Shown: positions 16,077 to 34,278 of the stretch, in pieces | Numbering within the stretch: the stretch's first letter is position 1 | How the letters are laid out: each line of letters begins with the position of its first letter | Origin: Gordonia araii NBRC 100433 | GTDB taxonomy: Bacteria; Actinomycetota; Actinomycetes; Mycobacteriales; Mycobacteriaceae | Reading direction: 5' to 3' | Length of the DNA stretch: 64,000 nucleotides | Assembly (NCBI RefSeq): GCF_000241265.1 | Contig: NZ_BAEE01000021.1 | Coordinates: forward strand, 62,001-126,000 | Translations under genes and position numbers: made by a program | Notes under the pieces: model-generated | Told to the model about the DNA's origin: nothing | The model's input: only the letters and a program-made list of their open reading frames with translations | Databases searched by the model: none

Positions 16077-18296
16077 CTAGACCGGGGCTGGTTCGAGTCC
16101 CCGATCGCGGACGGCTTCCCCCTCGATGTCGAAATTGACCACCAGCTTGTCCAGCCACTTCGGCAGACCCCACGCACGGTCGCCCAGCAGCGCGATGACC
16201 GCGGGCACGACCGTCATGCGGATGATGAACGCGTCGAAGAAGATCGCGATCGCCATGGCGAAGCCCATCATCTTCGCCATCGTGTCCGGGGCGAGCATGA
16301 ACGCGGAGAACACGCTGATCATGATGATCGCCGCCGACGTCACCACGCGCGCTCCGTGCCGATAGCCGGCGACGATAGCGTCCTTGGCGCTCATGCCGTG
16401 GATGTACTCCTCGCGCATTCGTGTCACGAGGAAGACTTGGTAGTCCATGGCGAGGCCGAACACGACGCCGATCAGGAAGATCGGCAGGAAGGACAGGATC
16501 GGCTTGGTGTGGTCGATCAATCCGAGCGCACCCTCCTGGAAGAACCACACGGTGGCGCCGAAGGTCGCCAGCACCGAGAAGATGAACCCGAGCGTGCCGA
16601 TGAGCGGCACCCACAGCGACCGGAAGACGCCGATCATGATCAGGAAGGCGAGACCGACCACGACCACCAGATAGGGGATCAGTGCCTTGTCGAGCTTGGC
16701 GGTCAGGTCCGACATGATCGCGGTCTGCCCGCCGACGTGGATTTCGGCGTTCTGCTTGGCGATGTCGGGACTGGTCGCGCGGATGCGCTCGACGAGATCG
16801 TGTGTAGCTTCCGACGACGCCGAACTGGTCGGGGTCACCTGGATGAGGGCAGTGTTCGCCTCGGCGTTCGGATTGGGTGCCTTGCCGTTGCCGATCCACT
16901 GAATCGCCTCGGGAACGGCCACGCCGGGCAAGCCCTTGATCTGGCTCACGGCGGCATCGGCCGCGGCGTTGACCGTGCCCTGCTTGGTGTGGACCACGAC
17001 GAACAGGTCGGCGCCGGTGCCCTCGCCGAAACCGCGCTTGAGCAGCGACTGCGCCGCGACCTCGTCGTCGGAGACGGTGTCCATGCCCAGTTCCATGCGT
17101 CCCATCGGAATCGCCGCCAGCAGCAGGATGAGCAGGCCGCCGAGGATGAACGGAATGGGACGTTTGACGATCGCCCGTCCGTACTTCACGCCGAGCGTGT
17201 CCGCGGTCGCCGACTCCTCGGCATGCCGGATCCAGGGGATCTTCGGGGTGAACGCGAACCGGCCGGTCGCACCGAGCAGTGCGGGGATCAGCGTCAGGGC
17301 CGCGAGGACGGCGACCGCCACGGCGATGGCGGCGCCGAGACCCATCTGGGTGATCAGCGGGATGCCGATGACCATGAGCGCCGCGACGGCGACGATGACG
17401 GTGAGCCCGGCGAAGACGACGGCGGAGCCCGCGGTGCCCACGGCGCGCCCGGCAGCGTCGGCGGGATCGCCGCCGCGACTGCGTTCGGTCCGGTATCGCG
17501 ACACGATGAACAGCGCGTAGTCGATGGAGACGGCGATGCCGAGCATGGTGACGATAGCGGTCGCGGTCTGGTTGACCGTCATGAACTTCGCGGACACCAT
17601 CAGCAGCATCATCGTCAGGCCGACGCCGACGATGCCGGTGATCAAGGGGATGAAGGCGGCGATGATGGCGCCGAAGGCGACGATCATGACCACGAAGGCG
17701 ACGGCGAAGCCGAGCATCTCGGCCTGGCCGGGCTCCTCCTGGGCCTGCATCACACCCATGGTCGCCTCGACCTGGAGACCGTGGCCGCGATGCTTGGCCA
17801 GGACTTCGGTCAGGGCTTCCTTGTCCTTGGTCTTGAGGTCCATGACGTTCAGCGACTGGTGGACCGTGATCAGGCCGACGCGGCCGTCGTCACCGAGAAC
17901 CTTCGGGGCGATCGCCGGCATCTTATGCGCGGTGGTAACCGGGTTGGCGATCGTCTTCCGGTCGGCGACCGCCGGCAGATTCTGCAGATCGGCGACGAGC
18001 TTGTCGATCTCCTTGGTGTGGTTGGCCAGCGTGTCGCCGGGGTTCTTCTTATCGGTCGCGATGACGACGATGGTGTTGGCCTCGGTCTGGGACTTCGTCA
18101 GATCGGGGAAGTACTCCTGCATTTGCTCCATCGCGACACCGCCGTCGGTGCCGGGCAGCTCGAAATCCTTGGAGAACTTCGGCTGCAGGCCAACGATGAG
18201 GCCGAGGAGGATGGCGAGCGCGGCGACCCAGGCGCCGATCACCCACCACTTGTGACGGAATGAGAAGCGTCCGAGGTTGAACAAGTATGACGACAT
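16077..18296 (-). CDS. MMPL family transporter
   Basis: A 739-residue RND/MMPL exporter distinct from the copy at 580-2784. It starts MSSYLFNLGRFSFRHKWWVI and has two halves, each with an extracytoplasmic loop and a helix bundle. The signature Asp-Tyr residues are in VSIDYALFIVSRYRTER and LAMDYQVFLVTRMREEY. The length matches short MmpL proteins of the 'drug exporter' annotation class. It is transcribed with the TetR gene 2 bp downstream, from a promoter region holding a perfect 8-5-8 operator. The substrate is unknown. Confidence 0.92.
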   Translation of the reverse strand: MSSYLFNLGRFSFRHKWWVIGAWVAALAILLGLIVGLQPKFSKDFELPGTDGGVAMEQMQEYFPDLTKSQTEANTIVVIATDKKNPGDTLANHTKEIDKLVADLQNLPAVADRKTIANPVTTAHKMPAIAPKVLGDDGRVGLITVHQSLNVMDLKTKDKEALTEVLAKHRGHGLQVEATMGVMQAQEEPGQAEMLGFAVAFVVMIVAFGAIIAAFIPLITGIVGVGLTMMLLMVSAKFMTVNQTATAIVTMLGIAVSIDYALFIVSRYRTERSRGGDPADAAGRAVGTAGSAVVFAGLTVIVAVAALMVIGIPLITQMGLGAAIAVAVAVLAALTLIPALLGATGRFAFTPKIPWIRHAEESATADTLGVKYGRAIVKRPIPFILGGLLILLLAAIPMGRMELGMDTVSDDEVAAQSLLKRGFGEGTGADLFVVVHTKQGTVNAAADAAVSQIKGLPGVAVPEAIQWIGNGKAPNPNAEANTALIQVTPTSSASSEATHDLVERIRATSPDIAKQNAEIHVGGQTAIMSDLTAKLDKALIPYLVVVVGLAFLIMIGVFRSLWVPLIGTLGFIFSVLATFGATVWFFQEGALGLIDHTKPILSFLPIFLIGVVFGLAMDYQVFLVTRMREEYIHGMSAKDAIVAGYRHGARVVTSAAIIMISVFSAFMLAPDTMAKMMGFAMAIAIFFDAFIIRMTVVPAVIALLGDRAWGLPKWLDKLVVNFDIEGEAVRDRGLEPAPV

Positions 18297-18302
18297 GTCG
18301 AC

Positions 18303-18323
18303 AAGTGTTACTGACTAACACTT
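18303..18323. promoter_or_regulatory. Perfect palindromic operator before the MMPL-TetR operon
   Basis: AAGTGTTA (18303-18310), CTGAC, TAACACTT (18316-18323) form a perfect 8-bp inverted repeat whose inner edge is 6 bp from the MMPL start codon. A repressor here would block transcription or leader passage. The co-transcribed TetR protein is the likely ligand. Confidence 0.7.
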
Positions 18324-18366
18324 TTTCGCGCAACAGGAAATCTGGGCCCAGTGGCGAGCCTCACCC

Positions 18367-18463
18367 GCCGACCGTGCCCACTTTCCCGCCGACCGTGCCC
18401 ATTTTCGCGCCGACCGTGCCCAGTTTCGCGCCGACCGTGCCCACTACCCCGCCGACCGTGCCC
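18367..18463. repeat. 21-bp tandem repeat array, five units
   Basis: GCCGACCGTGCCC recurs at 18367, 18388, 18409, 18430 and 18451, an exact 21-bp period. Between copies is a variable linker such as ACTTTCCC, ATTTTCGC or AGTTTCGC. On the minus strand most units carry AGTGGGCAC or ATGGGCAC. The array occupies most of the gap between the MMPL gene and the XRE regulator. A second array with the same AGTGGGCAC core lies at 57943-58066. Confidence 0.85.
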
Positions 18464-18514
18464 GCACATCACGGTGTGCTGACAATGTGATGTGGTTCGA
18501 GAAGATTGGACCGC

Positions 18515-18871
18515 GTGCCGGAACGAGTTCGCGGATCCCTCGACTGGGGGACGTACGCCAACTCATTCGCATTCCGATTGGCGCTGGTCAGACGCCAACG
18601 AGGCCTGTCGCAAGAGGCGTTGGCCCACAAGGCAGGTATGCACCGCAACCAGGTGTCCAACCTCGAGCGGGCGCGCAGCAACCGCGAGCCGTTCATCTCG
18701 GACCCGCAGCTCTCGACGGTGTACCGGCTTGCCGTCGCCCTCGACGTTCCGCCGACGTACTTGTTGCCCGACGCCAACGGCCTCCTTCCCGAGCAGTCGC
18801 CGGAGCTGACGGATGGTTCGCGGGTGGAGAAGGAGTTGTACGAGCGCCTGGCGGGCGAAGCCGACGGTTAG
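18515..18871 (+). CDS. XRE family helix-turn-helix regulator
   Basis: About 118 residues from GTG 18515; a TTG at 18508-18506 (same frame, three codons earlier) is also possible. A Cro/C1-type HTH spans about residues 18-81: FAFRLALVRRQRGLSQEALA, then HKAGMHRNQVSNLERARSNR, then SDPQLSTVYRLAVALDVPPT. An acidic tail follows. It sits at the left edge of the defence island, convergent with the coiled-coil gene, 12 bp apart. Small XRE proteins often control defence loci (C-protein-like); that role is inference. Part of its sequence (18671-18748) recurs in decayed form at 31903-31982 on the other side of the island. Confidence 0.8.
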   Translation: MPERVRGSLDWGTYANSFAFRLALVRRQRGLSQEALAHKAGMHRNQVSNLERARSNREPFISDPQLSTVYRLAVALDVPPTYLLPDANGLLPEQSPELTDGSRVEKELYERLAGEADG

Positions 18872-18883
18872 CTCGCGGCCGAA

Positions 18884-20743
18884 CTATGTCGTCCGGAAGT
18901 TGTCGAGGTGCTTGCCGATGTAGCCGACGTAGATCTTGCCCGAGCGCGATGCATCGCTGTAGTAGTGCAGGCGCGGGCTGATCATACCCAGCTTTGCGAT
19001 TGCCACGTGAGCACCCATGAATACCTTTCCTTCCGGATTGACCGACGTCGGAACGGGCAGCGTACGAATCCTTCGGTACTTGGGGTGGTTTTGTGTCTGC
19101 GGTGTTTCGCCCGCCTTGTGGCCGGTTATCCCCACACATCCCATGGGCGTGTTGGCCGCGTAATCATCGACAGACCCGGCGAACGCCCCGGTCGACCTGA
19201 GGTGCGCATAGTCGTTGAGAGCCCTGATGATGTTCCACGTCTTCTTTGCCCAGGTGCCCAGGTGGTCATGATCATCGAGTTCGACCGTTTGTTTTGGGTC
19301 GCCAGTGAACTCGATGTGATCGAGATCGTCGATACGCGCAAGCAGGTCGCGGAACGATTCCGGCGGGAACTCAAGTGCTGTGCGCTCGGTGGCCCATTCG
19401 ACAGACCCTTGATCGAGCTTGGCCAGTTCGCTGCGCAGGTGGCGGAGTTCTCGGTTGGCGTCGTCGAGGCGCTCTTGATCAACTGCTTGATCGAGCTGGG
19501 CATCTTCCAACTGGCGCTGCAGTTCGGTGTGTTCGTCCTCAAGGACGCCGCGTTCAGCTTCGAGCGCCCTCAACCTTTGCCTCAGCAGGTCAAGGTTCTG
19601 TCGATTCCTTATTCCGTCAAGAGCAACCGCGACGAGTTGGGAGACAGCTTCGATTGACAATTCGGCCTGGCCCACGACCTTCTCTAAGCCGTCTCGCAGC
19701 GCGTTGACAAGTGCTGGGGTGAAGCGCTCCCGTTTCGACGCAGACCGGGCACGAGAGGAGTCGGCGGGGACCTTGTTGCTGGTGCCGGCCTGGCCCGCGG
19801 AGAGCGGTGGTGTGGCCTCGAGTGCCACGGCAGTTGCCGAAGCGCGTTGAACTAGCGCGTCATCGAGCATGGCCCGAAGACGTCGGTCGACACGCACGAG
19901 TTCCCTCGGCAGTGGCAGCTCCGTGGAGTTGCGGAGAGCTGCGTTCCTAAGGATCTGAGCGACGCCACGATCGTCCGACGACGCTATGCGGTTCGTACTC
20001 AGAATTCGATGCCGCAGGGCATCGTCCGCGCTGCTGAAGTCTGGATTCGGGTAGAAGGTCCGGATCGTCCATGGCTTGACCGCATGGGCGGGGGACATCC
20101 GCGAGTTCAGCTCTTCGGTTGTCTCTGCGTCGAGGATGTAGGCCGTGGCCAACCCGTTCGTTCCGTTGAGCAGTTTCGTAACGTGTGCCACCCACTGTGA
20201 GATAGGGCCGAGACGGTCGTCGGACCCGGCAAGAAAGACGAGACCGCGTCGCCGCTCGTCGGTGAGCGTTCCCAAGATGGTGTCGACGTCGTCCGGATAT
20301 GCGCGCACCGGCGCGGCCGGGGAGTGGTATCCACCGTCCAGTGCGTCGACGACCTCACTGATGTTCCGAATGACCCTTGGGGGTGCCGGGCGTTTGTCGC
20401 CCGGAGCGTACAGGTCGATCCACACGACACCTGATCTGTCGCGATGGAGCACGGTCGTGACCTGGGTTGTCCAGGTTCCGTCGGACCCGGTCTGGGTGAA
20501 ACGCCAACGTGCGATAGTGCTGTCGTCCTGGCGTTCTTCTTCGACAAACGACGCGTGCACGCCATTTGCCACCGCGGCGATTCCTGGGTCTGCGATCGCG
20601 TTCGCGTCCCACCGTTTCGACAGGCACCACGAGCGCACTTGTTCGCGGACCTTGTCGACGAGCCGGGGATCATGTTCGACGCTGAATATCGACCGACACG
20701 CGAGGCGAGTGGATATTCGACGGAGGCCATCGCTGTCCGTCAT
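18884..20743 (-). CDS. Uncharacterised coiled-coil protein, fourth gene of the defence operon
   Basis: A 619-residue protein I do not recognise. Residues 1-300 look like a globular alpha/beta region (VVDALDGGYHSPAAPVRAYP, then DERRRGLVFLAGSDD and DALRHRILSTNRIAS). Residues about 300-340 are low in order, and 383-444 form a clear heptad-rich coiled coil (LLRQRLRALEAERGVLEDEH, then ANRELRHLRSELAKL). A compact C-terminal module at about 555-619 ends in ISPRLHYYSDASRSGKIYVG, then YIGKHLDNFRTT. ATG 20743 has a strong AGGAGG that overlaps the stop of the ATPase gene (8-bp gap), so the two are translationally coupled. It is probably an accessory or effector of the helicase-methylase-ATPase system. 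Confidence 0.85.
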   Translation of the reverse strand: MTDSDGLRRISTRLACRSIFSVEHDPRLVDKVREQVRSWCLSKRWDANAIADPGIAAVANGVHASFVEEERQDDSTIARWRFTQTGSDGTWTTQVTTVLHRDRSGVVWIDLYAPGDKRPAPPRVIRNISEVVDALDGGYHSPAAPVRAYPDDVDTILGTLTDERRRGLVFLAGSDDRLGPISQWVAHVTKLLNGTNGLATAYILDAETTEELNSRMSPAHAVKPWTIRTFYPNPDFSSADDALRHRILSTNRIASSDDRGVAQILRNAALRNSTELPLPRELVRVDRRLRAMLDDALVQRASATAVALEATPPLSAGQAGTSNKVPADSSRARSASKRERFTPALVNALRDGLEKVVGQAELSIEAVSQLVAVALDGIRNRQNLDLLRQRLRALEAERGVLEDEHTELQRQLEDAQLDQAVDQERLDDANRELRHLRSELAKLDQGSVEWATERTALEFPPESFRDLLARIDDLDHIEFTGDPKQTVELDDHDHLGTWAKKTWNIIRALNDYAHLRSTGAFAGSVDDYAANTPMGCVGITGHKAGETPQTQNHPKYRRIRTLPVPTSVNPEGKVFMGAHVAIAKLGMISPRLHYYSDASRSGKIYVGYIGKHLDNFRTT

Positions 20744-20751
20744 TCTGCCTC

Positions 20752-24108
<3,357 letters not shown>

Positions 24109-24213
24109 GGCGTTTTGCTCCTGTCGCACAACAGATTGTTCGGGCTCAATATAGCTTCCGGTACCGACACGCATGTCCTGCTGGTGGTAGCGGTGCTCGG
24201 CGACGCTCGGCGA

Positions 24214-26994
24214 TCAGATGAGCGTCCCCTGGGTTCCGGTGGTTTCGGCACCGCGAGCGATGTCGTTCCAGGCGGCGCCGAGTTGGTTGAAGTCGACGGC
24301 GAGGGCGGTCCTCTTGCGGTCTTCGGCGAGTTTGAACAGCAGGCTCGCGAGTTCTCGGCAGAGATCCCGGTCCACGGCGGACGGGACCTGGCCCAAAAGA
24401 GCCGAGGCGGCCGGGATGCCATCGGTCGCGAGCGCCCGGGTGAGGTGCATGACGACCTCCCACTGGCTGATCGATTCGTCGCCCGACGGGTCGTAGTCGA
24501 CGGGCATATCGCGCGGCGCGATCAAGGTGACCTTGCCGCCGCCCTTGGTGAGAATGCCGGCGCGTTCCAGGTGGTCGAGAGAGATCCCGCGCCCGTTCGC
24601 GATGTTCTCCGCGTCGCCGAACACTCCAGTGCCGAAGTCGTGCTGGCGGAACCAGGTAAGCGCGAAGCGGGTCTCGGAGTCGAAGTCGTTCTCCAATTCG
24701 GTGAGCACTTCGTCGAGGATGACGTTGATCCGTTGCAGTGCCGTGCGGACCGTCATCGACGATCCGTCGTCCTCCATCACCCGGCTGTAGCGGGAAAACA
24801 CCGCCATGCCTGGCCCGATGGCTGCCTGCGGGAGGTCGACGGGAGCGATCGATCCTTGCTGGAGCTCCCGGAGCTTCTGTGGCAGTTCGGCTTTCAGGGC
24901 TGCCGTGAATCCGCGACGGTCAATGCGGGGTGCGTTCTCGGGGCGTGGACGGAGGGCAAGCACGATGGACGAGGCGAGAGCATTGGTGCCCTGGCTGAGC
25001 ATCCGGTTGCCGAGTTCCGAGCGCATCGGCCAGGTCGCGGTGATTTGCCATCCGGAGGTGATCATGCCTTCTAGCAACGTTTCCCAACCCGTCGACGCCT
25101 GGCCGTCTTTCGAGGCGTCCTGCTGCTTGAAGGCGTAGTAGACGGTAATGGGGAAGTCGGGCAGCGCATTCTCGCGGGCCCGACGGAAGACCTCGCGGAA
25201 ACCGTCTTCGAAGAACTCTTGCGCCCCTTCCTTGCCGCCGTGGCGATAGGGGTTAGCGACCAGTTCGTCTGCCTTGGGTACCAGCATGGTCGAGAGAAGA
25301 CTTGGGTGGACGTCTCTAAGAGAGCGGCGCAGCCACACGTAGAAGAAGTCGGACAGGTCGGAATAGCCGATGTTGCCGTAGTACGGCGGGTCGGTGGAGA
25401 TCACGGAGTTGGACAAGTCGACGCGGGCAGCGTCGGCTTGCGTCGCGAACCCATCTGCAGACGCCGGTAGCGTTGCGACGCCATCCGAGGTCAGTTTCAG
25501 ATGCGCCACCCACGATCCCAAAGCGTCGCCTACGAGATTCGCCTCAAGGAAGTCCCATGTCATCGGAATGGCCTGTCGGGCAAAGGTCGAACGTATCTGT
25601 TCGTTCTTGTTATGCCATGTGGTGATCGAGGATGACTGATCAACGGTACGGAGCAGTGCCAGGCCGAGATACGTCGCAACCGCATCGGCGTAGGCAGCAG
25701 CGCCGGTGCCGCCGGCTTCGAGACGTTCGCCCCCGGGCATTCCGGCGGCGACGGCGTCGCGCAGAACATGCTCGCGGGCCTCGCTGACGAGGTCGCTGAA
25801 CGTCGTGAGCGCGGTGAGTTGGCGTGGGGTGAAGAGGTCGGCGAACTTCGCGAGCCCGTAACGTACAACGTTAATGCGACCGGGCCAGTCAAACAGTTCG
25901 CCGGGAGGCGAATCTGCGGGCCGTGCGACGTCGGCGGCTGCTGCGTGCTCCGGTGACGGTTCCAGGTAGACCCGTCGACGGTCGCCTTCGGCGACCGTAG
26001 CCATGAGTTGCGATCCCATCCGACCGGCTTGGCCTTCGCCACGGATGTACTTCAATTCGACGGCCGAGCCACACCGAACGCACGTCGCACCGTTTCGCCC
26101 AACAGTTCCGTCGGTCTCGGCCGTCGGCGCGTTAGCCGGATCATGACCAATCTCGAACCGCACGGTCTTGCCCTCGACGACCGGAACGACGTAGGACTCT
26201 TTGCCCTTCTTCTTGCCCAGCCACCACGATCGGACCAGCGGCATCGCGATGCGGCACTCGGGGTTGGGGCAGGTGACTGTTCGAGCCCAGATCCACGCGA
26301 TGACTGTCGCCTCGGAACCATCCGGCAGCGTGGCATTCGGATATAGATGCCCGATGCGCTTCTCCGCTTCGTCGCGCATCCATTGGCCGTAGCGTCGGAC
26401 GTCCTCGGCCAGACCGGTTGCGCGGGGCCAATCCTGGAAGGTCTCGTCGGCGGCACCGGGGAAGACTGGCCGCTGCCCGGCGAACTTCGGTGGAATCTCG
26501 ATCAGGGCCTTGTTGATGAGCACTGCCACGGGATTCAAATCGGACGCATGCGCTTCCAGGCCCAGTCGTTGGGCCTCCAAGGGAATCGTTCCGCCGCCGG
26601 CAAAGGGGTCCAAGATCGGCGGCGGGTTGCCGTCGGTCGACTCCAGGATCTTTCGATGAGCCCGACGCAGCAGCGCTTCGTCATTCGAGTTCTCCCAGAC
26701 GACGAGCCGCTCGATGAGCTTGAACAGCTTCTTGCGCTCCAGCTCCTGATCCTCGACGGTGGGGTACAAATCAGGACGCGACGCCGGATCATCGACGAGC
26801 TGGGCGAACAGGACTGCGCGAGCGGCGGGCAACGGACGACGAGCCCACCAGTACGCAATGCTCCACGGATGCTTCACCGGCCGTTTGCTGGCTGCCGCCT
26901 CATTGATCTTCTGCAGCGGGATGCTGACCTCGATGAGCTTGCGCCGCTGAGAGGCGGGAATCGATGAACCAACATGATGTGCGGCAGCAGACAC
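24214..26994 (-). CDS. DUF1156-type DNA methyltransferase
   Basis: A 926-residue protein. The N-terminal DUF1156 region reads RKLIEVSIPLQKINEAAASK, then WSIAYWWARRPLPAARAVLF. The S-adenosylmethionine motif I is DPFAGGGTIPLEAQ (129-142). The catalytic motif IV is STDPPYYGNIGYSDL (DPPY at 535-538), the amino-methyltransferase signature of N6-adenine or N4-cytosine enzymes. Between them is a Cys4-type zinc-binding insertion (C242, C247, C305, C308). It should modify host DNA as the 'self' mark. GTG 26994 is preceded by AAGGGG with 5-nt spacing. It is flanked by the helicase (75-bp gap) and ATPase genes on the same strand. Confidence 0.88.
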   Translation of the reverse strand: MSAAAHHVGSSIPASQRRKLIEVSIPLQKINEAAASKRPVKHPWSIAYWWARRPLPAARAVLFAQLVDDPASRPDLYPTVEDQELERKKLFKLIERLVVWENSNDEALLRRAHRKILESTDGNPPPILDPFAGGGTIPLEAQRLGLEAHASDLNPVAVLINKALIEIPPKFAGQRPVFPGAADETFQDWPRATGLAEDVRRYGQWMRDEAEKRIGHLYPNATLPDGSEATVIAWIWARTVTCPNPECRIAMPLVRSWWLGKKKGKESYVVPVVEGKTVRFEIGHDPANAPTAETDGTVGRNGATCVRCGSAVELKYIRGEGQAGRMGSQLMATVAEGDRRRVYLEPSPEHAAAADVARPADSPPGELFDWPGRINVVRYGLAKFADLFTPRQLTALTTFSDLVSEAREHVLRDAVAAGMPGGERLEAGGTGAAAYADAVATYLGLALLRTVDQSSSITTWHNKNEQIRSTFARQAIPMTWDFLEANLVGDALGSWVAHLKLTSDGVATLPASADGFATQADAARVDLSNSVISTDPPYYGNIGYSDLSDFFYVWLRRSLRDVHPSLLSTMLVPKADELVANPYRHGGKEGAQEFFEDGFREVFRRARENALPDFPITVYYAFKQQDASKDGQASTGWETLLEGMITSGWQITATWPMRSELGNRMLSQGTNALASSIVLALRPRPENAPRIDRRGFTAALKAELPQKLRELQQGSIAPVDLPQAAIGPGMAVFSRYSRVMEDDGSSMTVRTALQRINVILDEVLTELENDFDSETRFALTWFRQHDFGTGVFGDAENIANGRGISLDHLERAGILTKGGGKVTLIAPRDMPVDYDPSGDESISQWEVVMHLTRALATDGIPAASALLGQVPSAVDRDLCRELASLLFKLAEDRKRTALAVDFNQLGAAWNDIARGAETTGTQGTLI

Positions 26995-27069
26995 GAATAC
27001 CCCTTAGCGAGATGAGCAGAACGCTAGAGCGTACCGCACAACAGAATGTGCGTCGCGGTGAAGCCGGGT

Positions 27070-30000
27070 TCAGTGCGGTGGCAGGCCCCGCGCCCAGACC
27101 TTCTTCCACTGCAGTTGAACCCCGGCGACGTCGGCATCGCCGAGGTGAACTTCGCTGAAGTAGTCCGTCAGGTACCGGATTTCGTCGTGTTCCGGTCCGT
27201 CTGGACTCACCGAAACGAGCACCAGCCGGTGTTGCGGGCCGGTGTTCAGCGCGTGCAGCACCTCGTTGTAGGAGACGAAAACGCTGTCGGCGCCCTCGAC
27301 CCTGCCCTTGACCTCTAGAAAGACCGTCGGCTCGGCCGTTCCCGGGGTGGTGGACCGGATGTCGAAGCCCTTGTTGTTGTGCGCCATCTCCTCCGGTGAG
27401 CGACCCAATCCTCGCTCGGATGCCAGTGCCAGGTCGACGGCGCGGCGCTCGCTTACCGTCGTGTCCCGTGCGTACCGCGCCACCGATCCACCGAGCATTC
27501 CGGCCGGGATGACGAGCATGACCGCCGCCAGCTCGGGACGCTTCGCGGTCAGCGCCCGCTGTCGCTCCAATTTCGCCAACCGGCGTTCCAACCGCAGCTC
27601 CAGATCCTCCGCCCGTGCGGCGAGCGTGTCTGGACTGTGCCGGCGCTTGCGGCCTCGACGGCCCGAGGCGTCTTCTTCGCGTAGCCGCGCGACCTCGCTG
27701 TGCAGATGATTGATCTGCCCGTGCAGGCGCGAGCGAACGGCGTCGGCTGTCCGGTCGATCTCCGGCAGCAGCCGGCCGCGAACCTGCGCCAACTGCTCTG
27801 GTTGCGCAACCCCAGCCGCCCAACTCATCGCCGCGTCGGCGAGCTGTCCGGAGATCCATTCGGACGCCAGCGCGCGGTCAGCCGCCCGTCGCGCGGCAAC
27901 GGGATAGGGGGAGAAGTCGATGGGCGCCAGATCGAGGTGGGGAGCCGGACCGGCGTCGCTCGCGGTCCCGTCGGGATGGAGATCGACGAAACTGAACCGC
28001 TTGCTCACCACGCGGCCGGTGCCATCGACGACCTCACCGGTCATCGCGACGATGATCCGCGGCTGGTCCCCGGGATCAGACGGGTCGACGAGGATCGCAC
28101 CGCTGCGCAGCGACGCGAAGCCGCGCTCGACGGTGGTGTCGACGACCGCGTCGAGCAACGGATGTCCCGGTGCCAGCAGATCGAGCCGATGTCGAACGCC
28201 TTCCGCGGCGGCCGGCTCGAACGCGACGCGCTCGTACGCCCGGACGACGGGCCGCCCGCAGTGCTCTCGGCGAACCGGCCGGTCCCGCAGGACCAGCGGG
28301 ACGTTCGAGATCTGCCACTGGCCTTTCTCGCGTTTAGCGAGGCGCCCGCCGAGTGCCCCGAACGCCTCGCGGAAGAAGCGCTCGATGTAGTGCGGTTGTA
28401 GGCGACGCGCTTGTGCTTCGTCCATCTCGCGGCGCAGCTGCTCCAGTTCCAGCGGGCCGAGCGTCTCGCGCGCGAGCGCCCGTGACTCGACAAGGTCGCG
28501 ACACCCGTCGGCGACGGTTGCGTCGACGACCCGTTCGATCTCCTCAAGGCGCTGCGGGTCGTCGCCGTATCGGATCGCGTCCATCAGGAGTTCTCGCAGT
28601 GGCCGCTCGGTGAACGATTCGCCGAGGACGTCGAACAGTTTGCCGCCGTATGCCTTTCGTTGCTGCTCCATCTTCTCGAGCAGCCGCAGATAGACCTGTC
28701 CCTCGCGGGTTTGGTCGGCCACGACATTCCACAACCGGCACACCTGCTTCTGCCCGATGCGGTGGATCCGGCCAAAGCGCTGCTCAAGGCGGTTCGGGTT
28801 CCACGGCAGGTCGTAGTTGATCATCAGGTTTGCCGCCTGCAGGTTCAGGCCCTCGCCCGCGGCGTCGGTAGCGACCAGCACTTGTCGTCGCGGGTCGTTG
28901 GTGAACTGCTCGCGCAGCGCCACGCGTTCGCGTCGGGGAGTACCGCCGTGGATGGTGAGCACCGCCTCGTCGGCGCCCAGCACATTGCGGATCTGCCGCG
29001 CCAGATAGTCGAGGGTGTCGCGATGCTCGGTGAAGATGATCAGCTTGCGCGCTGCGCCGTCGGGGCCGCGGAGCAATTGGCGGTCGATCAGCAGGTCGCG
29101 GACTTCCGACCACTTTCGGTCGATGCCGGAGTCGCGCACGCGGGAGGCCATCGCGACGAGGTCGTCGAGCAGCGCGATCTCCACGTCGAGTTCGGCGACG
29201 GTGCGCGCTGCGGTGGCAGCATCGACGACCTCGTCGGCCGCGGCTTCGTACTCGGCGGCGTCGTAGTCGTCGGCGTCATCGAGGTCGACGGGATTGGGTG
29301 GCGGGCCATCGATGAATGGATTGCGTCCGGCTTGGATGTCGGCGCGCATGGTCGCCAGACGATGGCTACGGCGTTCGAGGCTACGCAGAATGGCGTGCGT
29401 GCTCGATGCCAACCGTCGCTGCAACACGGTCAGCGCGAAGCCGACCGTCCGTCGCTGCGGTGAATCACCTTGTGATTCGGCACGATTCATCTCCTCGCGC
29501 ACGTAATGAGTGACAGCCTCATACAGCTCCAGCTCGCCGTCGGAGAGGTCGTACGGGACGGTTTCGGCGATTCGTTCGGGAAACAGCGGTCGGCCTTCGA
29601 AGGTCAGCAGCTCTTCCTTCACCATGCGTCGCATCAGTCCCGACGTGTCGGGTGTGGGCGCACCTGGGAGCTGGTGACCGGCGAATCGGTCTTCGTCTAG
29701 CAGGGAGAGGAAGGCGGCGAAGTTGTCGTCGTTGCCGGCATGTGGCGTGGCCGTCATCAGCAGCAGGTGGCGGCTGATCGTGCCGAGGAGCTGACCGAGT
29801 TCGTAGCGCCGCGTCATCCGCAGCTCGCCGCCCCACCAGTTCGCGGACATGCGATGCGCCTCGTCGACGACGACGAGGTCCCAGTCGGTGCGCGACAGCG
29901 CGTCGAGGAGGTCTTCGTTGCGGGCGAGCTGGTCCATCCGCGCGATCATGATCGGGTGACCGGCGAACGGATCACCGTCGACGCTGGTGTCGACCATGTC

Positions 30001-30555
30001 GCGGGACAGCAGCGTCGCAGCGATGCCGAACTTGGTGTCCAGCTCGTCCTGCCACTGTTCCACCAACCCGCCCGGTGCGACGATGAGCATGCGCGCGAGG
30101 TCTCCACGAAGCATCAGTTCTTTGGCGTATAGGCCCGCCATGATCGTCTTGCCCGCGCCCGGGTCATCGGCGAGGAGGAAGCGCAACGGTGTGCGGGGGA
30201 GGAGTTCTCCGTACACCGCGCGAATCTGGTGAGGAAGCGGGGAGATGTCGCTGGTGGCCACCGCGACCATCGGGTCGTGGGCACCGGCCATGCGGATGCG
30301 CAGCGCCTCGGTAGCCAGTTTGAACCGCGCCGGATCGGCATCGAATGTCCATCCCGATTCGGCCTCGGACGCGATCGCCAGATCGTCGAGTTCGGATTCG
30401 TACAGCATCTCCTCGGCAACGCCGGTTTCCTCGTCGCGCACGACGATCGCCAGTGCCGCGTCGCCGTGCGGCGCGACCGCGACGACGGTGACCGGACGCG
30501 GCCAGCGGCCAGTCAGTCGAACGCCGCTCGTGATGTCGGCAAAGGTGAGTGTCAT
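27070..30555 (-). CDS. DEAH/SNF2-type helicase with C-terminal DUF3883 nuclease-like domain
   Basis: About 1161 residues. The superfamily 2 motor has Walker A LADDPGAGKTIMAGLY (128-143), VVVDEAHRMSANWWG (DEAH 231-234), LLLMTATPHAGND (motif III) and a helicase C domain with ATDAAGEGLNLQAANLMINY and RLEQRFGRIHRIGQ. A helical stretch (about 950-1030) follows. The last 100 residues form a DUF3883-like domain, FDIRSTTP then VFLEVKGRVEGADSVFVSYN, whose D1065, E1081 and K1083 fit a PD-(D/E)xK-type nuclease core. ATG 30555 has AAGGA 6 nt upstream. It is the first gene of the operon and is divergent from the Fic gene across a nested palindrome. Confidence 0.88.
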   Translation of the reverse strand: MTLTFADITSGVRLTGRWPRPVTVVAVAPHGDAALAIVVRDEETGVAEEMLYESELDDLAIASEAESGWTFDADPARFKLATEALRIRMAGAHDPMVAVATSDISPLPHQIRAVYGELLPRTPLRFLLADDPGAGKTIMAGLYAKELMLRGDLARMLIVAPGGLVEQWQDELDTKFGIAATLLSRDMVDTSVDGDPFAGHPIMIARMDQLARNEDLLDALSRTDWDLVVVDEAHRMSANWWGGELRMTRRYELGQLLGTISRHLLLMTATPHAGNDDNFAAFLSLLDEDRFAGHQLPGAPTPDTSGLMRRMVKEELLTFEGRPLFPERIAETVPYDLSDGELELYEAVTHYVREEMNRAESQGDSPQRRTVGFALTVLQRRLASSTHAILRSLERRSHRLATMRADIQAGRNPFIDGPPPNPVDLDDADDYDAAEYEAAADEVVDAATAARTVAELDVEIALLDDLVAMASRVRDSGIDRKWSEVRDLLIDRQLLRGPDGAARKLIIFTEHRDTLDYLARQIRNVLGADEAVLTIHGGTPRRERVALREQFTNDPRRQVLVATDAAGEGLNLQAANLMINYDLPWNPNRLEQRFGRIHRIGQKQVCRLWNVVADQTREGQVYLRLLEKMEQQRKAYGGKLFDVLGESFTERPLRELLMDAIRYGDDPQRLEEIERVVDATVADGCRDLVESRALARETLGPLELEQLRREMDEAQARRLQPHYIERFFREAFGALGGRLAKREKGQWQISNVPLVLRDRPVRREHCGRPVVRAYERVAFEPAAAEGVRHRLDLLAPGHPLLDAVVDTTVERGFASLRSGAILVDPSDPGDQPRIIVAMTGEVVDGTGRVVSKRFSFVDLHPDGTASDAGPAPHLDLAPIDFSPYPVAARRAADRALASEWISGQLADAAMSWAAGVAQPEQLAQVRGRLLPEIDRTADAVRSRLHGQINHLHSEVARLREEDASGRRGRKRRHSPDTLAARAEDLELRLERRLAKLERQRALTAKRPELAAVMLVIPAGMLGGSVARYARDTTVSERRAVDLALASERGLGRSPEEMAHNNKGFDIRSTTPGTAEPTVFLEVKGRVEGADSVFVSYNEVLHALNTGPQHRLVLVSVSPDGPEHDEIRYLTDYFSEVHLGDADVAGVQLQWKKVWARGLPPH

Positions 30556-30642
30556 CGGCCGTCCTTGTCGTGAAGGTGTAAAGCCGACTGACCCTACATG
30601 TATTCGCAACAAGATGTGTGTCCTTGGAAGCCCGGACTGCGT

Positions 30643-30718
30643 CAAGTGATGCCATCCATAGACTATTAGCATCACTTAGTGAATAAGTGATGCTAACATC
30701 TCTAGATGGCATCACTTG
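30643..30718. promoter_or_regulatory. Nested double palindrome between fic and the helicase operon
   Basis: The outer arms CAAGTGATGCCATC (30643-30656) and GATGGCATCACTTG (30705-30718) are perfect 14-bp complements. Nested inside, TTAGCATCACTTA (30666-30678) and TAAGTGATGCTAA (30684-30696) are perfect 13-bp complements around GTGAA. All four arms contain AGTGATG or CATCACT, so the region holds four copies of one half-site. The Fic start codon (30706) is inside the outer right arm. The layout suggests two operators bound cooperatively and controlling both divergent units. Confidence 0.8.
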
Positions 30719-31902
30719 GCACGGCGGTGGCCTACGAGGAACTGGTGTGGCCCATGCCGGTCGAGGTTCGATACGGCGTGGCAGATCAGCGTGCCGCCGT
30801 GCGTCAATCGGGTCCGTACCACGCAGCCGTCCCTGCCGAGATCGCGCCGCTAGACCTGGCCCTCCGCCAATCGGTTCTCGCGGAGGCCGAGGAGGCGGCG
30901 AACGAGGTAGCGCGATTCGACGCTGAGCTCGGCTCTGAGATCGCCCCGTTCACCTCGATCCTGTTGCGATCTGAGGCCGCGGCGAGTTCTAACATCGAGA
31001 ATCTGACTGCCTCGGCCCGCGCCATTGCCGAGGCCGAAGTGTTGGGCGGTGTCCGCCGGAATGCGAGTCTGATCGTCGCCAACGCCGACTCCATGCGCGC
31101 GGCCATCGACCTGGCCGACAGCATTGACGCCACGGCGATACTCGCCATGCACCGCGCATTGATGGAGCCGAGTGAACCCGGGATCGCGGGGAAGTGGCGC
31201 AACGAGCAGGTGTGGGTGGGCGGCGGTCCATTCGGCCCGCGTGGGGCGGACTTCGTCGCACCGCAGCACAGCCGGATTCCCGCGGCGATCGACGACCTGG
31301 TCTCCTTCGCCACTCGCACGGACATGCCGGTGCTCCCGCAGGTCGCGATTGCTCATGCCCAGTTCGAAACGATTCACCCTTTTCCCGACGGAAACGGGCG
31401 GACCGGGCGCGCGCTTCTCCAAGCGATGCTGCGGCATCAACGGTTGACCCGTCGCATTACGGTTCCGGTCTCGGCCGGCCTACTCGCGGACACCGAGGAA
31501 TACTTCGCGGCGCTGACCGCCTACCGCGACGGCGATCCGGGGCGGATCGTCTCGGTCGTCTCGACTGCTTCGTTGCACGCTGTCGCCAATGGAAGGCGGT
31601 TGGTCGCCGATCTGAGGGAGGTGCGGCAAGGGTGGACCGAGCGCATCGCGGCACGACGCGACTCGGCGATCCACCGAGTCGCCGATCTCCTGTTGAGCCG
31701 ACCCGTGTTCAACGCCGCACTACTGCAACGTGAACTCGGAATCCGAACAGGCAACGCTAGACGGTATGTGGATCCGCTGGCTGAAGCCGGGATCGTCGTC
31801 GAGTTCACCGACCGAGCGCGGAACCGCGCCTGGCGCGCCCCGGAAGTCCTGGCGGCGCTTGACGCCTTCGCCGAGCGGGCCGGGCGCCGCACACTTCAGT
31901 AA
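30706..31902 (+). CDS. Fic family protein with N-terminal autoinhibitory motif
   Basis: A 398-residue Fic protein, a fold that usually transfers AMP from ATP to a protein. The catalytic motif HPFPDGNGRTGR (224-235) is complete. The N-terminal helix carries SSNIEN (94-99), matching the [S/T]xxxE[G/N] inhibitory motif of class II Fic proteins, so activity is expected to be self-restrained. The C-terminal roughly 90 residues (LLSRPVFNAALLQRELGIRT, then ARRYVDPLAEAGIVVEFTDR) look like a winged helix-turn-helix, as in Fic proteins that regulate their own gene. ATG 30706 lies within the palindrome at 30643-30718, consistent with autoregulation. Confidence 0.9.
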   Translation: MASLGTAVAYEELVWPMPVEVRYGVADQRAAVRQSGPYHAAVPAEIAPLDLALRQSVLAEAEEAANEVARFDAELGSEIAPFTSILLRSEAAASSNIENLTASARAIAEAEVLGGVRRNASLIVANADSMRAAIDLADSIDATAILAMHRALMEPSEPGIAGKWRNEQVWVGGGPFGPRGADFVAPQHSRIPAAIDDLVSFATRTDMPVLPQVAIAHAQFETIHPFPDGNGRTGRALLQAMLRHQRLTRRITVPVSAGLLADTEEYFAALTAYRDGDPGRIVSVVSTASLHAVANGRRLVADLREVRQGWTERIAARRDSAIHRVADLLLSRPVFNAALLQRELGIRTGNARRYVDPLAEAGIVVEFTDRARNRAWRAPEVLAALDAFAERAGRRTLQ

Positions 31903-31982
31903 GGGCGCGCCGCGACCGCGAGCTGTTCCTCTCGGATCCGCAGCTCTCGGCGGTGCATCGCCTCGCCGTCGCCTCGACGTAA
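31903..31982 (+). pseudogene. Decayed fragment of an XRE regulator gene
   Basis: Immediately after the Fic stop, about 80 bp align with bases 18671-18748 of the intact XRE gene at roughly 86% identity by eye (about ten substitutions and one deleted base). Its translation reads ARRDRELFLSDPQLSAVHRL, then AVAST and a stop; the intact gene has NREPFISDPQLSTVYRLAVA. The single-base deletion shifts the frame into the stop. It marks the right edge of the defence block. Confidence 0.75.
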
Positions 31983-31989
31983 CGGCGAC

Positions 31990-32586
31990 CTAGGGCCCGA
32001 ATGCCGTTTCGGCATCCGAGCACACCGTCCACCTGCGCTCCTCGCGCCGGAAGAAGAGCGTGGATGTTCGCCCATCAGACGTGAATGTCAGCTGTGCTCT
32101 CGCGACATCGTCTTTGACTTCGACCGCGGCGATCTCGAACTTCTCCGGCTGCGCGTCGGACTCGTCGTCGGTGGCCTCGAGGTCGGCCTGAACGTGTTGA
32201 GCTTCGGACTTGCACAGCAGCTTCGTCATCTCGCCCGTGTCGCCTTGGGCGACGGCTCGGGAGAAGTCGGCGGTGATCTGTTTGATGGCCTTCTCGTCGC
32301 CGAAGCCGCCCGCGAAGAAGTAGACCGCGCCTGCCGCACCGCCGAGCAGGACGACAACTGCGGTGATCGCCAGCGCGATGGTCAGGGGGCGCCGCGGTTT
32401 GCGCGGCGGTGGAGGAGGCGGAGGGAACGGGGGATGGCCCGGAGGCGCACCATAGCCCGGTCGTGGGCCGAATCCCATGGGGCCGGGCGGCGGCCCGACC
32501 GGCCCGTTCGAGGGAGGTGGCTGTGGCGGCGCCGGGGGTGTCGGCCACTGCGGGGCGGGCTGTGGACCCGAGGGATGTGGATACAT
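31990..32586 (-). CDS. Proline-rich single-span membrane protein
   Basis: 198 residues. The first 66 are a Pro/Gly-rich cytoplasmic tail (MYPHPSGPQPAPQWP through PPFPPPPPPPRKP). One membrane helix follows (LTIALAITAVVVLLGGAAGA, about 68-92), then an extracytoplasmic domain of about 105 residues resembling the DUF4878/lumazine-binding-like fold (AIKQITADFSRAVAQGDTGE, then TSTLFFRREERRWTVCSD). Two Cys residues in this part could pair. It is the last gene of an operon with a putative secreted nuclease and its neighbour; the ATG follows the previous stop directly. Function unknown. Confidence 0.75.
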   Translation of the reverse strand: MYPHPSGPQPAPQWPTPPAPPQPPPSNGPVGPPPGPMGFGPRPGYGAPPGHPPFPPPPPPPRKPRRPLTIALAITAVVVLLGGAAGAVYFFAGGFGDEKAIKQITADFSRAVAQGDTGEMTKLLCKSEAQHVQADLEATDDESDAQPEKFEIAAVEVKDDVARAQLTFTSDGRTSTLFFRREERRWTVCSDAETAFGP

Positions 32587-33303
32587 CTAGCCTCCCTCCA
32601 CCAGACGATTGACGAGTTCTTCATCGAGGGACTCGCCGACCGGCCGCACCGGATCGGGCGGGTCGGAGCGGTAGACCGCGACCGCCATCCCGTCGGGCAG
32701 GTCGGGCGAGACGCACACCCGGAGTTCGCTGTACGTGGTGAGCAGCACCAAGAGGCGACGAGGCTGGGGCGCATGCTCCCAGTCCGGCAGGTCCGCGGAA
32801 CCCAGACCCCATTCGTCGACCAGCGTGGTCATCTCCACCACTGGTCGAAAACCGTAGCTTTCGAGATCGGGGGCGGTGAACCGCCGATGCACCTCGGACT
32901 GGAACGTCCGCACCGGGGCCGGAATCGCGGAGACTAGTTCGGCACCGCCGCCGTCAGACTCGGTGGCGGCATCTGTGCCCGGCGTCGTTCCGATCCATAG
33001 CGACACGGTCCGGTCGTCGGCGTAGCGATGCTCCACCGCATAGGCCAGCATCGGTTCGTTGCCGACCAGGACGACGCGCACGTCGGCAAGTTCCTCACGC
33101 AGCATCCGGGCGAAGTCGGGCAGCAGCTCGAACATGTCGCCGTTCCACAGGCTCCGCGCGATCTCGGCCCGGCGCGCGGCCTCGTCGGCCTCGATGATGG
33201 GCCGCCATGGTGCTGGCACGGACGCGTCGTCGCCGGTTGCGAATCGAACGGGCTGCCCGGTGTCTTCGAGCCCGACGAGAATCTCGTCGTCGCTGACGGT
33301 CAC
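32587..33303 (-). CDS. Hypothetical protein, candidate immunity protein
   Basis: 238 residues, soluble, acidic, with no signal peptide (starts VTVSDDEILVGLEDTGQ). I do not recognise a domain. The middle has MFELLPDFARMLREELADVR and ESYGFRPVVEMTTLVDEWGL; the C-terminal half has PRRLLVLLTTYSELRVCVSP. Its GTG start overlaps the stop of the secreted HNH-nuclease gene by 4 bp, the usual arrangement for a toxin and its cognate cytoplasmic immunity protein. That assignment rests on context only. Confidence 0.7.
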   Translation of the reverse strand: MTVSDDEILVGLEDTGQPVRFATGDDASVPAPWRPIIEADEAARRAEIARSLWNGDMFELLPDFARMLREELADVRVVLVGNEPMLAYAVEHRYADDRTVSLWIGTTPGTDAATESDGGGAELVSAIPAPVRTFQSEVHRRFTAPDLESYGFRPVVEMTTLVDEWGLGSADLPDWEHAPQPRRLLVLLTTYSELRVCVSPDLPDGMAVAVYRSDPPDPVRPVGESLDEELVNRLVEGG

Positions 33304-34193
33304 GGCGTCTTCCCCTCACTGCGCAGAAGTCGACTGATGAGGTCGGTGAGCTTCTGTTGCACTTGGTCTTCCAGCTGGCGCTGCGATTTCACCCATGCGG
33401 GATCGGCTCCTTGGACGCGGGCGCTGCTGTCGGAGTTCTTGGCACTGTTGGCGCGCCGCGACAACCACTGCAGATTAGCCGGTGCGCGCGAGACGTAGTA
33501 CATCGATTCCGGGCTCAGCCTGGTGAATCCCGGCAGGTAAACCAAGCGCGCGAGGGGCACGATGTGGTCCGGGGAGACCATCGGATCGCCATTGGTCTTG
33601 CGTCCGATCTTCACGCCGCTGCCGGGCGGGAACGCGGGATCGGGATCTCCGACGCGCGGGCGGGACGTGTTCTGCAACGAGCCGGAATAGTTCTTCGGCG
33701 GGTTGTTCCGTCTGAGTTCCCGGTACAGCGCGTCGAGTTCACGCGGAGCCGAGACGATCCGGCCGGCGGGAAGCGGTGGCGGCGGCGGGACGCGGTAGCC
33801 GGGCGGGATCTGGCCCGCGGCGTTGCGCAGCCGGTCGAGCTGCTCTTGGTTAGGGCGACTGATATCGCGGCCGGCGCCCAGCTCTGTCATCGCGTTGGCA
33901 CAGGCGAGGAACGCCGCCCTGGCAGCATCCCTGGCGCTATTGAGTTGCTGTGCCCGGACGTTGTAGGCGTTGTACTGGGCCTGCTGGCTGGGCAGGACGA
34001 AGACGTGCGGTTGGGCGTTGTGAGCGTCGATCTGGCGCTTCACATCCGCCGCGCGCTGCATCTGGGCGGCGCACGGCGGCGCGTCGGCGTCAGCGGCCGC
34101 GCTCGTTACGGTGCTGACAGCGGTTGCGATGACTGCACCGACGAGCGCGGTCGCCAAGAGGCGCGGCAGTCGACAAGATGAATGGTTTCGCAC
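33300..34193 (-). CDS. Secreted protein with C-terminal HNH-type nuclease domain (candidate toxin)
   Basis: 297 residues from a GTG. The N-terminal signal sequence (LPRLLATALVGAVIATAVST, then SAAADADA) predicts Sec export. A helical middle (AAQMQRAADVKRQIDAHNAQ, then NSARDAARAAFLACANAM) is followed by a Pro-rich linker. The C-terminal domain has MVSPDHIVPLARLVYLPGFT and APANLQWLSRRANSAKNS: a DH...N...N pattern as in HNH/endonuclease-VII-like toxin domains of polymorphic toxins. GDPDPAFPPGSGVKIGRKTN precedes it. It is followed by an overlapping small cytoplasmic gene that could provide immunity. Probably an interbacterial toxin or secreted nuclease; not a backbone gene. Confidence 0.75.
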   Translation of the reverse strand: MRNHSSCRLPRLLATALVGAVIATAVSTVTSAAADADAPPCAAQMQRAADVKRQIDAHNAQPHVFVLPSQQAQYNAYNVRAQQLNSARDAARAAFLACANAMTELGAGRDISRPNQEQLDRLRNAAGQIPPGYRVPPPPPLPAGRIVSAPRELDALYRELRRNNPPKNYSGSLQNTSRPRVGDPDPAFPPGSGVKIGRKTNGDPMVSPDHIVPLARLVYLPGFTRLSPESMYYVSRAPANLQWLSRRANSAKNSDSSARVQGADPAWVKSQRQLEDQVQQKLTDLISRLLRSEGKTP

Positions 34194-34278
34194 GCGCCGG
34201 ACGCTACCGCCGCCGGCCTAACCGCGCTCATGTCCGTCGGGTCGTTGAATGAGGGCGGGCGCGAAGCGCCCCGATCGA

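Follow-up and report, generated by a model that had tools for sequence, protein, structure and literature searches.

The locus described here raises the question of where a restriction-like defence system ends and its companion genes begin. In a 64,000-nucleotide stretch of Gordonia araii NBRC 100433 (contig NZ_BAEE01000021.1, positions 62,001 to 126,000; hereafter the window, from a host genome of 3.9 Mb), the genes hmaA, hmaB, hmaC and a fourth that we call P1 form one run on the minus strand from 30675 to 18884. A Fic-family gene diverges from hmaA, and a gene for an XRE-family regulator converges with P1. The original prediction, made from the letters alone, had taken the first three genes for a helicase-methylase-ATPase defence system of the Hma type, and the coiled-coil gene P1 and the Fic gene for possible components or embedded partners. 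All the named genes are present as uninterrupted open reading frames (ORFs), their domains and motifs matched, and the positions first given were correct to about 80 bases. We consider it likely that the locus is a complete Hma system, of a Type-1 BREX (bacteriophage exclusion)-related and restriction-modification-like kind, whose operon ends on its 3' side in a swap-in fourth gene, and that the Fic gene is separate. Of the earlier reading, the Hma identity and P1 as an embedded partner are retained, while Fic as a part of the system is not supported.

Results

The three core genes stand in the order A-B-C and match the PADLOC models of HmaA, HmaB and HmaC at 1252, 1079 and 825 bits, scores which in this order exclude chance. 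HmaA (27070..30675, minus strand) is a Snf2/DEAH helicase with the Pfam domains SNF2-rel, Helicase_C and NOV_C (NOV_C at E 2e-12); it carries a Walker A motif, a DEAH box and, in the C-terminal NO VEIN_C nuclease-like domain, the motif FDI..FLEVK. HmaB (24214..26994, minus strand) belongs to the DUF1156 family in Pfam and has the motifs DPFAGGG and DPPY of an N6-adenine-type DNA methyltransferase, and HmaC (20752..24174, minus strand) fuses a HEPN_Swt1 domain with the motif RNRDSH to a DUF499 AAA+ ATPase with NFGGGKTH and ILIDEW as Walker A and B motifs. Judged by sequence, the catalytic motifs of all three are intact. The likely starts of HmaA (ATG at 30555) and HmaC (ATG at 24102) lie downstream of the longest-ORF starts, because profiles and homologues begin aligning there.

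Prior studies named the Hma system and reported it from 26 phyla (Payne 2021, PMC8565338), and later classed the trio as Type-1 BREX-related (BR), finding HEPN fused in 1370 of 2446 taxa and helicase joined to nuclease in 1921 taxa (79%) (Rakesh and Krishnan 2026, PMC12839542). Type-1 BR is further characterised by a TUDOR domain at the N-terminus of the helicase and an RRM at the C-terminus of the DUF499 protein. HEPN-DUF499 proteins beside parts of restriction-modification (RM) systems had been described in 2013 (PMC3710099). The core families co-occur widely, and both these papers and the PADLOC scores bear out the name Hma. Since the window matches every testable Hma feature, its core is already known, and as far as sequence can tell the interval 20752-30675 (minus strand) is a complete known Hma system. 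The marks of Type-2 and Type-3 BR (DUF3780/HKD nuclease, PglZ + iSTAND) had no Pfam match in the six genes scanned in 18884-32586. We also considered that the HEPN motif might be lost where P1 is present, and rejected it: R..H is kept in 45 of 50 aligned HmaC rows, with or without P1, and in the five exceptions (L094, L096, L098, L159 and L257; L and G numbers are our handles for loci and genomes) HmaC is broken or truncated.

Several Hma loci contain further sequence. In two relatives of the same family (L081 and L084), hmaB is split, at a different point in each, by some 1.6 kb of intervening sequence. Seven Gordonia loci (L241, L250-L254 and L256) have a member of one gene family (about 520-580 amino acids) within Hma, on the opposite strand in six of them, and the L241 member is assigned to DUF222 by Pfam. 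Other large genes lie in or beside Hma in L259, L260, L245, L247 and L246. The last of these loci carries PDC-S01 (PADLOC); the scanned large genes of L259, L245 and L247 had no PADLOC match and, where Pfam was tried on them, nothing above its cut-off.

P1 (18884..20743, minus strand), a gene for a 619-amino-acid accessory protein, begins 8 nucleotides after the hmaC stop. Its linkage to Hma was followed in an even draw of 394 genomes of the class (thresholds E 1e-5 for P1 and E 1e-30 for HmaC), in the 59 Gordonia genomes, and in a scan of named genomes that gave 79 P1 loci from the best 80 of 94, a set that favours close relatives and includes near-duplicates; the gene caller used for neighbourhoods was an ad hoc one that missed or lengthened some genes. 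Across the class sample, P1 was found in 49 genomes, HmaC in 30 and both in 3, side by side in 2: the window's own and Gordonia hirsuta (G222, the named locus L102). Linkage to Hma is thus a minority state of the P1 family. Hma lay within 10 kb in 12 of the 79 named loci, in Gordonia aichiensis, G. hirsuta, G. amarae, two Tomitella, Dietzia, Rhodococcus, Intrasporangium, Nesterenkonia, a Propionibacteriaceae, Dactylosporangium and Streptosporangium. Within Gordonia, HmaC occurs in 24 genomes and P1 in 10 (11 genes). For nine of these 11 genes, spread over 8 genomes, hmaC is no more than 10 kb away, and six share its strand and come within 100 nucleotides of it; by a rough estimate, the chance of such closeness is about 0.002 per gene. 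Sixteen of the 24 Hma-bearing Gordonia lack P1 near hmaC, so that P1 is accessory rather than core.

The trees agree with this. The P1 tree was built from the window and 50 of the 79 loci, after 29 rows that were short, partial or broken in frame had been dropped. On it the Hma label needs 6 changes over 51 rows, and one well-supported clade of 7, which includes the window, is entirely Hma-linked and spans four genera. On the HmaC tree (50 rows, with one genome counted twice as L101 and L247, and omitting L086, where no HmaC ORF was called, and L104, cut by a contig end), the presence of P1 needs 11 changes, at least 9 of them by well-supported (starred) branches, and it is hardly clustered (49 of 500 shuffles were as low). 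The position of P1 also varies: it may follow hmaC, sit between hmaB and hmaC (L339), lie on the opposite strand between hmaA and hmaB (L138) or, in L104, stand upstream of hmaA in divergent orientation. The pattern is that of an accessory gene, one entering Hma loci repeatedly and independently and subject to loss. In this sense the coiled-coil gene is supported as an embedded partner, and PADLOC's group for such genes, HEC-07, points the same way.

The P1 protein comprises an N-domain (residues ~1-300), a coiled coil (~380-445) and a C-domain (~460-619). The N-domain resembles HEC-07 (PADLOC E 5e-16) and the C-domain NsnC of Menshen (E 1e-12); in the 51-member alignment, 48 members match the former and all 51 the latter. 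The match to HEC-07 is partial (140-299 of 553 in the models), and likewise in ten relatives scanned singly. Residues invariant among the 51 members include R228, H245, E546, R560, M576, H579, R591, G607, G610 and H612. An NsnC-type C-domain also forms the end of an ATP-cone protein (L317) and of a further coiled-coil protein (L312). The N-domain occurs without it in six proteins whose whole sequence was read; since the two domains are found apart, P1 joins two portable modules. By these profile matches, P1 is a diverged relative of HEC-07 that has its C-terminal domain in common with NsnC. HEC stands for Hma-embedded candidate, a term cited, with its source preprint (Payne 2024), in PMC12988326; the name HEC-07 was not found in the literature searched, outside which that preprint lay.

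Comparison of both domains with PDB and Pfam returned as best matches designed alpha-repeat proteins (E 0.004, for the N-domain) and coiled coils, and Pfam gave no ABC ATPase or HEPN match for P1. A RelE/ParE-like C-domain, proposed by eye, gained no support from profile comparison, in which the positive control was weak too, so that this is no disproof. P1 was found in none of 50,697 phage records; one relative occurs in viral contigs, and nine plasmid records hold others.

P1 is not confined to the neighbourhood of Hma. In gene maps of 18 P1 loci without Hma, it comes straight after hsdR in Lentzea, Gordonia otitidis and Agromyces and after hsdM in a Saccharopolyspora, while in Streptomyces it follows a helicase-methylase pair. 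By PADLOC these neighbours are type I subunits for methylation and restriction, a helicase of the DpdE/DrmD type and a methylase resembling DrmMI; we label the last two DISARM-like, the Streptomyces helicase being best matched by DpdE at 1658 bits (DrmD 271) and its partner by DrmMI at 227 bits. Within 10 kb of the 79 P1 loci we found Hma at 12, DISARM-like genes at 10 (seven Streptomyces, two Actinomadura and one weak Nocardia), type I RM at 8 (in 4 of which only the methylase gene matched, once weakly) and none of these at 49. The weak calls are L148 (97-147 bits, DISARM-like) and L176 (61 bits, type I RM). Such systems were thus near P1 in 30 of 79 loci, as against 0 of 40 arbitrary 20-kb regions from 20 class genomes, taken at hand-chosen fixed coordinates and not as random draws (Fisher p 7e-7); with the five loci that supplied queries left out, the count is 25 of 74 (p 6e-6). 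On the P1 tree the type I RM label needs 7 changes and the DISARM-like label 4. On our reading, P1 is dispensable to Hma in general but has been taken up time and again next to restriction systems of the motor-plus-methylase kind. The core trio has been described before, and genes of P1's kind next to Hma form an established category. That the P1 family extends across Hma, type I RM and DISARM-like systems was not met in the literature searched, and the most relevant preprint was outside that search; we do not claim this spread as unpublished.

Two further kinds of P1 neighbourhood were seen. Genes of the DUF262/GmrSD_N type adjoin P1 in L118 (by Pfam) and in L123, L139 and L159 (by eye, from the sequence starts); a DUF262 component is described in Menshen (PMC10952713). 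In Brachybacterium squillarum (L150, 981-18586), P1 lies between a UvrD-type helicase and a 2176-amino-acid protein, with a 2159-amino-acid protein upstream.

The Fic gene (30706..31902, plus strand) encodes a SoFic-like protein with a C-terminal helix-turn-helix-like region and the motif HPFPDGNGR (Pfam Fic E 5e-21). Its PADLOC match to SoFic (E 6e-65) covers residues 38-385, and its NCBIfam SoFic score is 51.8 of the 550 bits required. Nineteen of the 59 Gordonia genomes have relatives of this gene at E up to 1e-20. They lie within 10 kb of hmaC in 2 of the 24 Hma-bearing ones, the window's genome and G401, in both directly upstream of hmaA, and tblastn (E up to 1e-3) gave no Fic match at the Hma loci inspected, including 18 with added flanking sequence. 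The stretch from an MmpL gene to greA, in which the locus lies, is a variable site in Gordonia: its cargo (18296-34278 in the window) differs among the window, G401, G431 and G435, and its greA side is common to G404 and G416. At this same site, with MmpL on one side and greA on the other, G435 has XRE (91%) and Fic (81%) and no Hma match better than E 0.8, and G431 has Hma and XRE without Fic or P1. Homology of the Fic unit to G435 begins at 30643, at a cluster of four AAGTGATGC/GCATCACTT copies in the Fic promoter (30643..30718, assigned to no strand) that is a probable site of Fic autoregulation. Because Hma-less G435 keeps Fic and the homology starts at these repeats, Fic is most likely a unit of its own, with its own probable operator, at a shared chromosomal hot spot. 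G435 may equally have lost Hma.

The XRE gene (18506..18871, plus strand) has RstR/HipB-like matches in NCBIfam, below cut-off. Its family occurs in 28 of the 59 Gordonia genomes at 30 places; of these, 10 have hmaC within some 12 kb, with XRE in one of three positions, and 20 do not. XRE is thus a recurrent, non-obligatory companion of Hma in Gordonia. The inverted repeat CACATCACGGTGT / ACAATGTGATGTG (18465..18494, no strand), a probable operator, is aligned 5' of XRE in all nine Gordonia loci compared, Hma-less G435 included, with the exact pattern in eight; the window contains no other match to it at up to 3 mismatches. XRE probably represses itself at this conserved putative operator. XRE is divergent from hmaA in three loci, where one region may therefore serve both genes, and stands at the far end of the locus in the window. 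It may tune Hma, which for the window is a candidate role only.

Between the MmpL and XRE genes, 18364-18463 holds 4.8 repeats of the 21-bp unit CCCGCCGACCGTGCCCACTTT; there is no such array at the corresponding place in G401, and 18366-18446 is extra sequence relative to G435. A promoter scan of 18250-32700 found no sigma-70-like promoter. Between Fic and greA lie three genes (31990-34193) for proteins of 198, 238 and 297 amino acids that have no Pfam match and are absent from G401 and G435. The 198-residue protein is proline-rich with a membrane-type stretch, and the 297-residue protein has a signal-like N-terminus and, by eye, an HNH-like C-terminus. A secreted nuclease with an immunity gene is a possible reading of these genes.

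Discussion

From the families involved and their description in PMC12839542, the core would work much as a restriction system does. HmaB would mark self DNA by methylation, the AAA+ ring of HmaC would probably assemble on or scan DNA, and the helicase-nuclease HmaA would cut unmodified invading DNA. The HEPN RNase of HmaC may form a second, suicidal line that attacks RNA as a last resort. P1 would be co-transcribed with hmaC as accessory cargo, as suggested by the 8-nucleotide spacing and the shared strand. Its coiled coil may link an N-domain that senses or docks to a C-domain of the NsnC kind that serves as effector, and P1 would most likely be an independent or Hma-coupled back-up effector that adds a further strike.

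Several observations weigh against this explanation. Co-transcription is read from spacing only, and profile searches assigned P1 neither an activity nor a fold. Only 3 of the 49 P1-bearing class genomes have HmaC, adjacent in 2, and close relatives are over-represented among the 79 named loci. The type I RM and DISARM-like (DrmD/DrmMI) queries were taken from P1 loci themselves, and arbitrary regions serve poorly as a control, since defence genes tend to sit together in any case. The 49 loci without the systems sought, some of which end at a contig end and 13 of which are from Amycolatopsis, imply that P1 may act alone.

The strongest alternative, to which we give a little less than an even chance, follows from this last point: P1 would be a stand-alone, single-gene defence that shelters in defence islands and Hma operons and is not coupled to Hma. 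The loci with no Hma, type I RM or DISARM-like neighbour and the 46 of 49 P1-bearing class genomes without HmaC agree with it, as do the N-domain-only proteins and the other proteins with this C-domain; moreover, several HECs, HEC-06 among them, were antiviral in assays (PMC12988326). However, P1 follows hmaC, hsdR and a DrmMI-like gene at close range on the same strand, and one clade of 7 is Hma-only; such independence would lead one to expect neither.

A second possibility, by analogy with PrrC, we regard as rather unlikely: P1 would be a guard that the Hma complex keeps inactive and that a phage inhibitor blocking Hma would release. PrrC, lodged in the operon of the type I RM system PrrI, fires when restriction is blocked (PMC3710099), and P1 is recruited beside three different motor-plus-methylase systems. 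On the other hand, the toxicity of P1 is only putative, its C-domain is unclassified, and many P1 genes lack such a restriction system within 10 kb. As a speculation that we hold to be more probably wrong than right, this idea can be widened: P1/HEC-07 would be a portable guard-effector of unrelated ATP-driven systems (Hma, type I RM and DISARM-like) in Actinomycetota, firing when the restriction complex is blocked, with a C-domain that is a new effector fold also used by NsnC and the ATP-cone protein.

A third proposal, that Fic, Hma and P1 are one multi-layer system attacking DNA, RNA and protein, strikes us as very improbable. Fic does stand directly upstream of hmaA in the window and G401, a proposal of this kind has been published for RM loci with HEPN and Doc (PMC3710099), and G435 keeps XRE and Fic, so that Hma may have been lost there rather than never present. 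Yet Fic adjoins Hma in 2 of 24 Hma-bearing Gordonia and in none of the 18 flanked Hma loci, and at one and the same site G435 has Fic without Hma and G431 Hma without Fic. We therefore do not support Fic as an Hma component. That the operon is BREX or DISARM can be dismissed: Hma is classed as BREX-related (PMC12839542) and HmaA also matches DrmD (396 bits) and BrxHI/HII (335 bits), but its own-family score is more than three times the next, the matches listed for the six genes scanned in 18884-32586 include no PglZ, BrxC, BrxA/B/L or DrmB, and instead of a DrmA-DrmB core there are only helicase cross-matches below HmaA (among the best 25 of 55 families).

Our reading, a complete Hma system with a swap-in fourth gene, has some consequences. 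P1, for which Hma-embedded candidate is the nearest PADLOC label, is not bound to Hma: its relatives stand directly behind hsdR, a DrmMI-like gene or hmaC. If P1 is indeed a guard or back-up effector, the role of an embedded gene becomes testable with any of these systems. Furthermore, Fic is made unlikely as a part of Hma, and the XRE operator becomes a testable candidate for Hma control.

Compared with known systems, the Fic protein is like SoFic in its PADLOC match, but it is only a neighbour of Hma and falls far below the NCBIfam SoFic cut-off. P1 resembles PrrC in its position as an accessory gene within a restriction operon; unlike PrrC, to which it has no sequence relation, it has no ABC ATPase or HEPN match. 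With Menshen NsnC, the P1 family (51 of 51) has the C-terminal ~160-180 residues in common, although the NsnC model has 316 positions and P1 619 amino acids. An NsnC-like gene (L311, 312 amino acids) has another N-terminus than P1 and adjoins a P-loop ATPase gene. We considered the Menshen trio NsnA-NsnB-NsnC for the window and rejected it: only the C-domain matches, with no NsnA or NsnB among the PADLOC matches listed for the genes scanned. P1 is closest to HEC-07, through the N-domain of 48 of 51 family members and through positions in and around Hma, and it departs from HEC-07 in a C-domain that matches NsnC models and in relatives that also adjoin type I RM and DISARM-like systems.

The core itself has these features described for Type-1 BR: the Snf2 helicase, a predicted C-terminal PD-(D/E)XK nuclease on that helicase, the DUF1156 putative N6-methyltransferase HmaB and the DUF499 ATPase, here with the HEPN fusion found in a subset of these systems. 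It agrees with published Hma in having all three genes in the same order, HEPN fused to DUF499 and a nuclease-like domain at the C-terminal end of HmaA, and differs from the three-gene form in the fourth co-directional gene 3' of hmaC.

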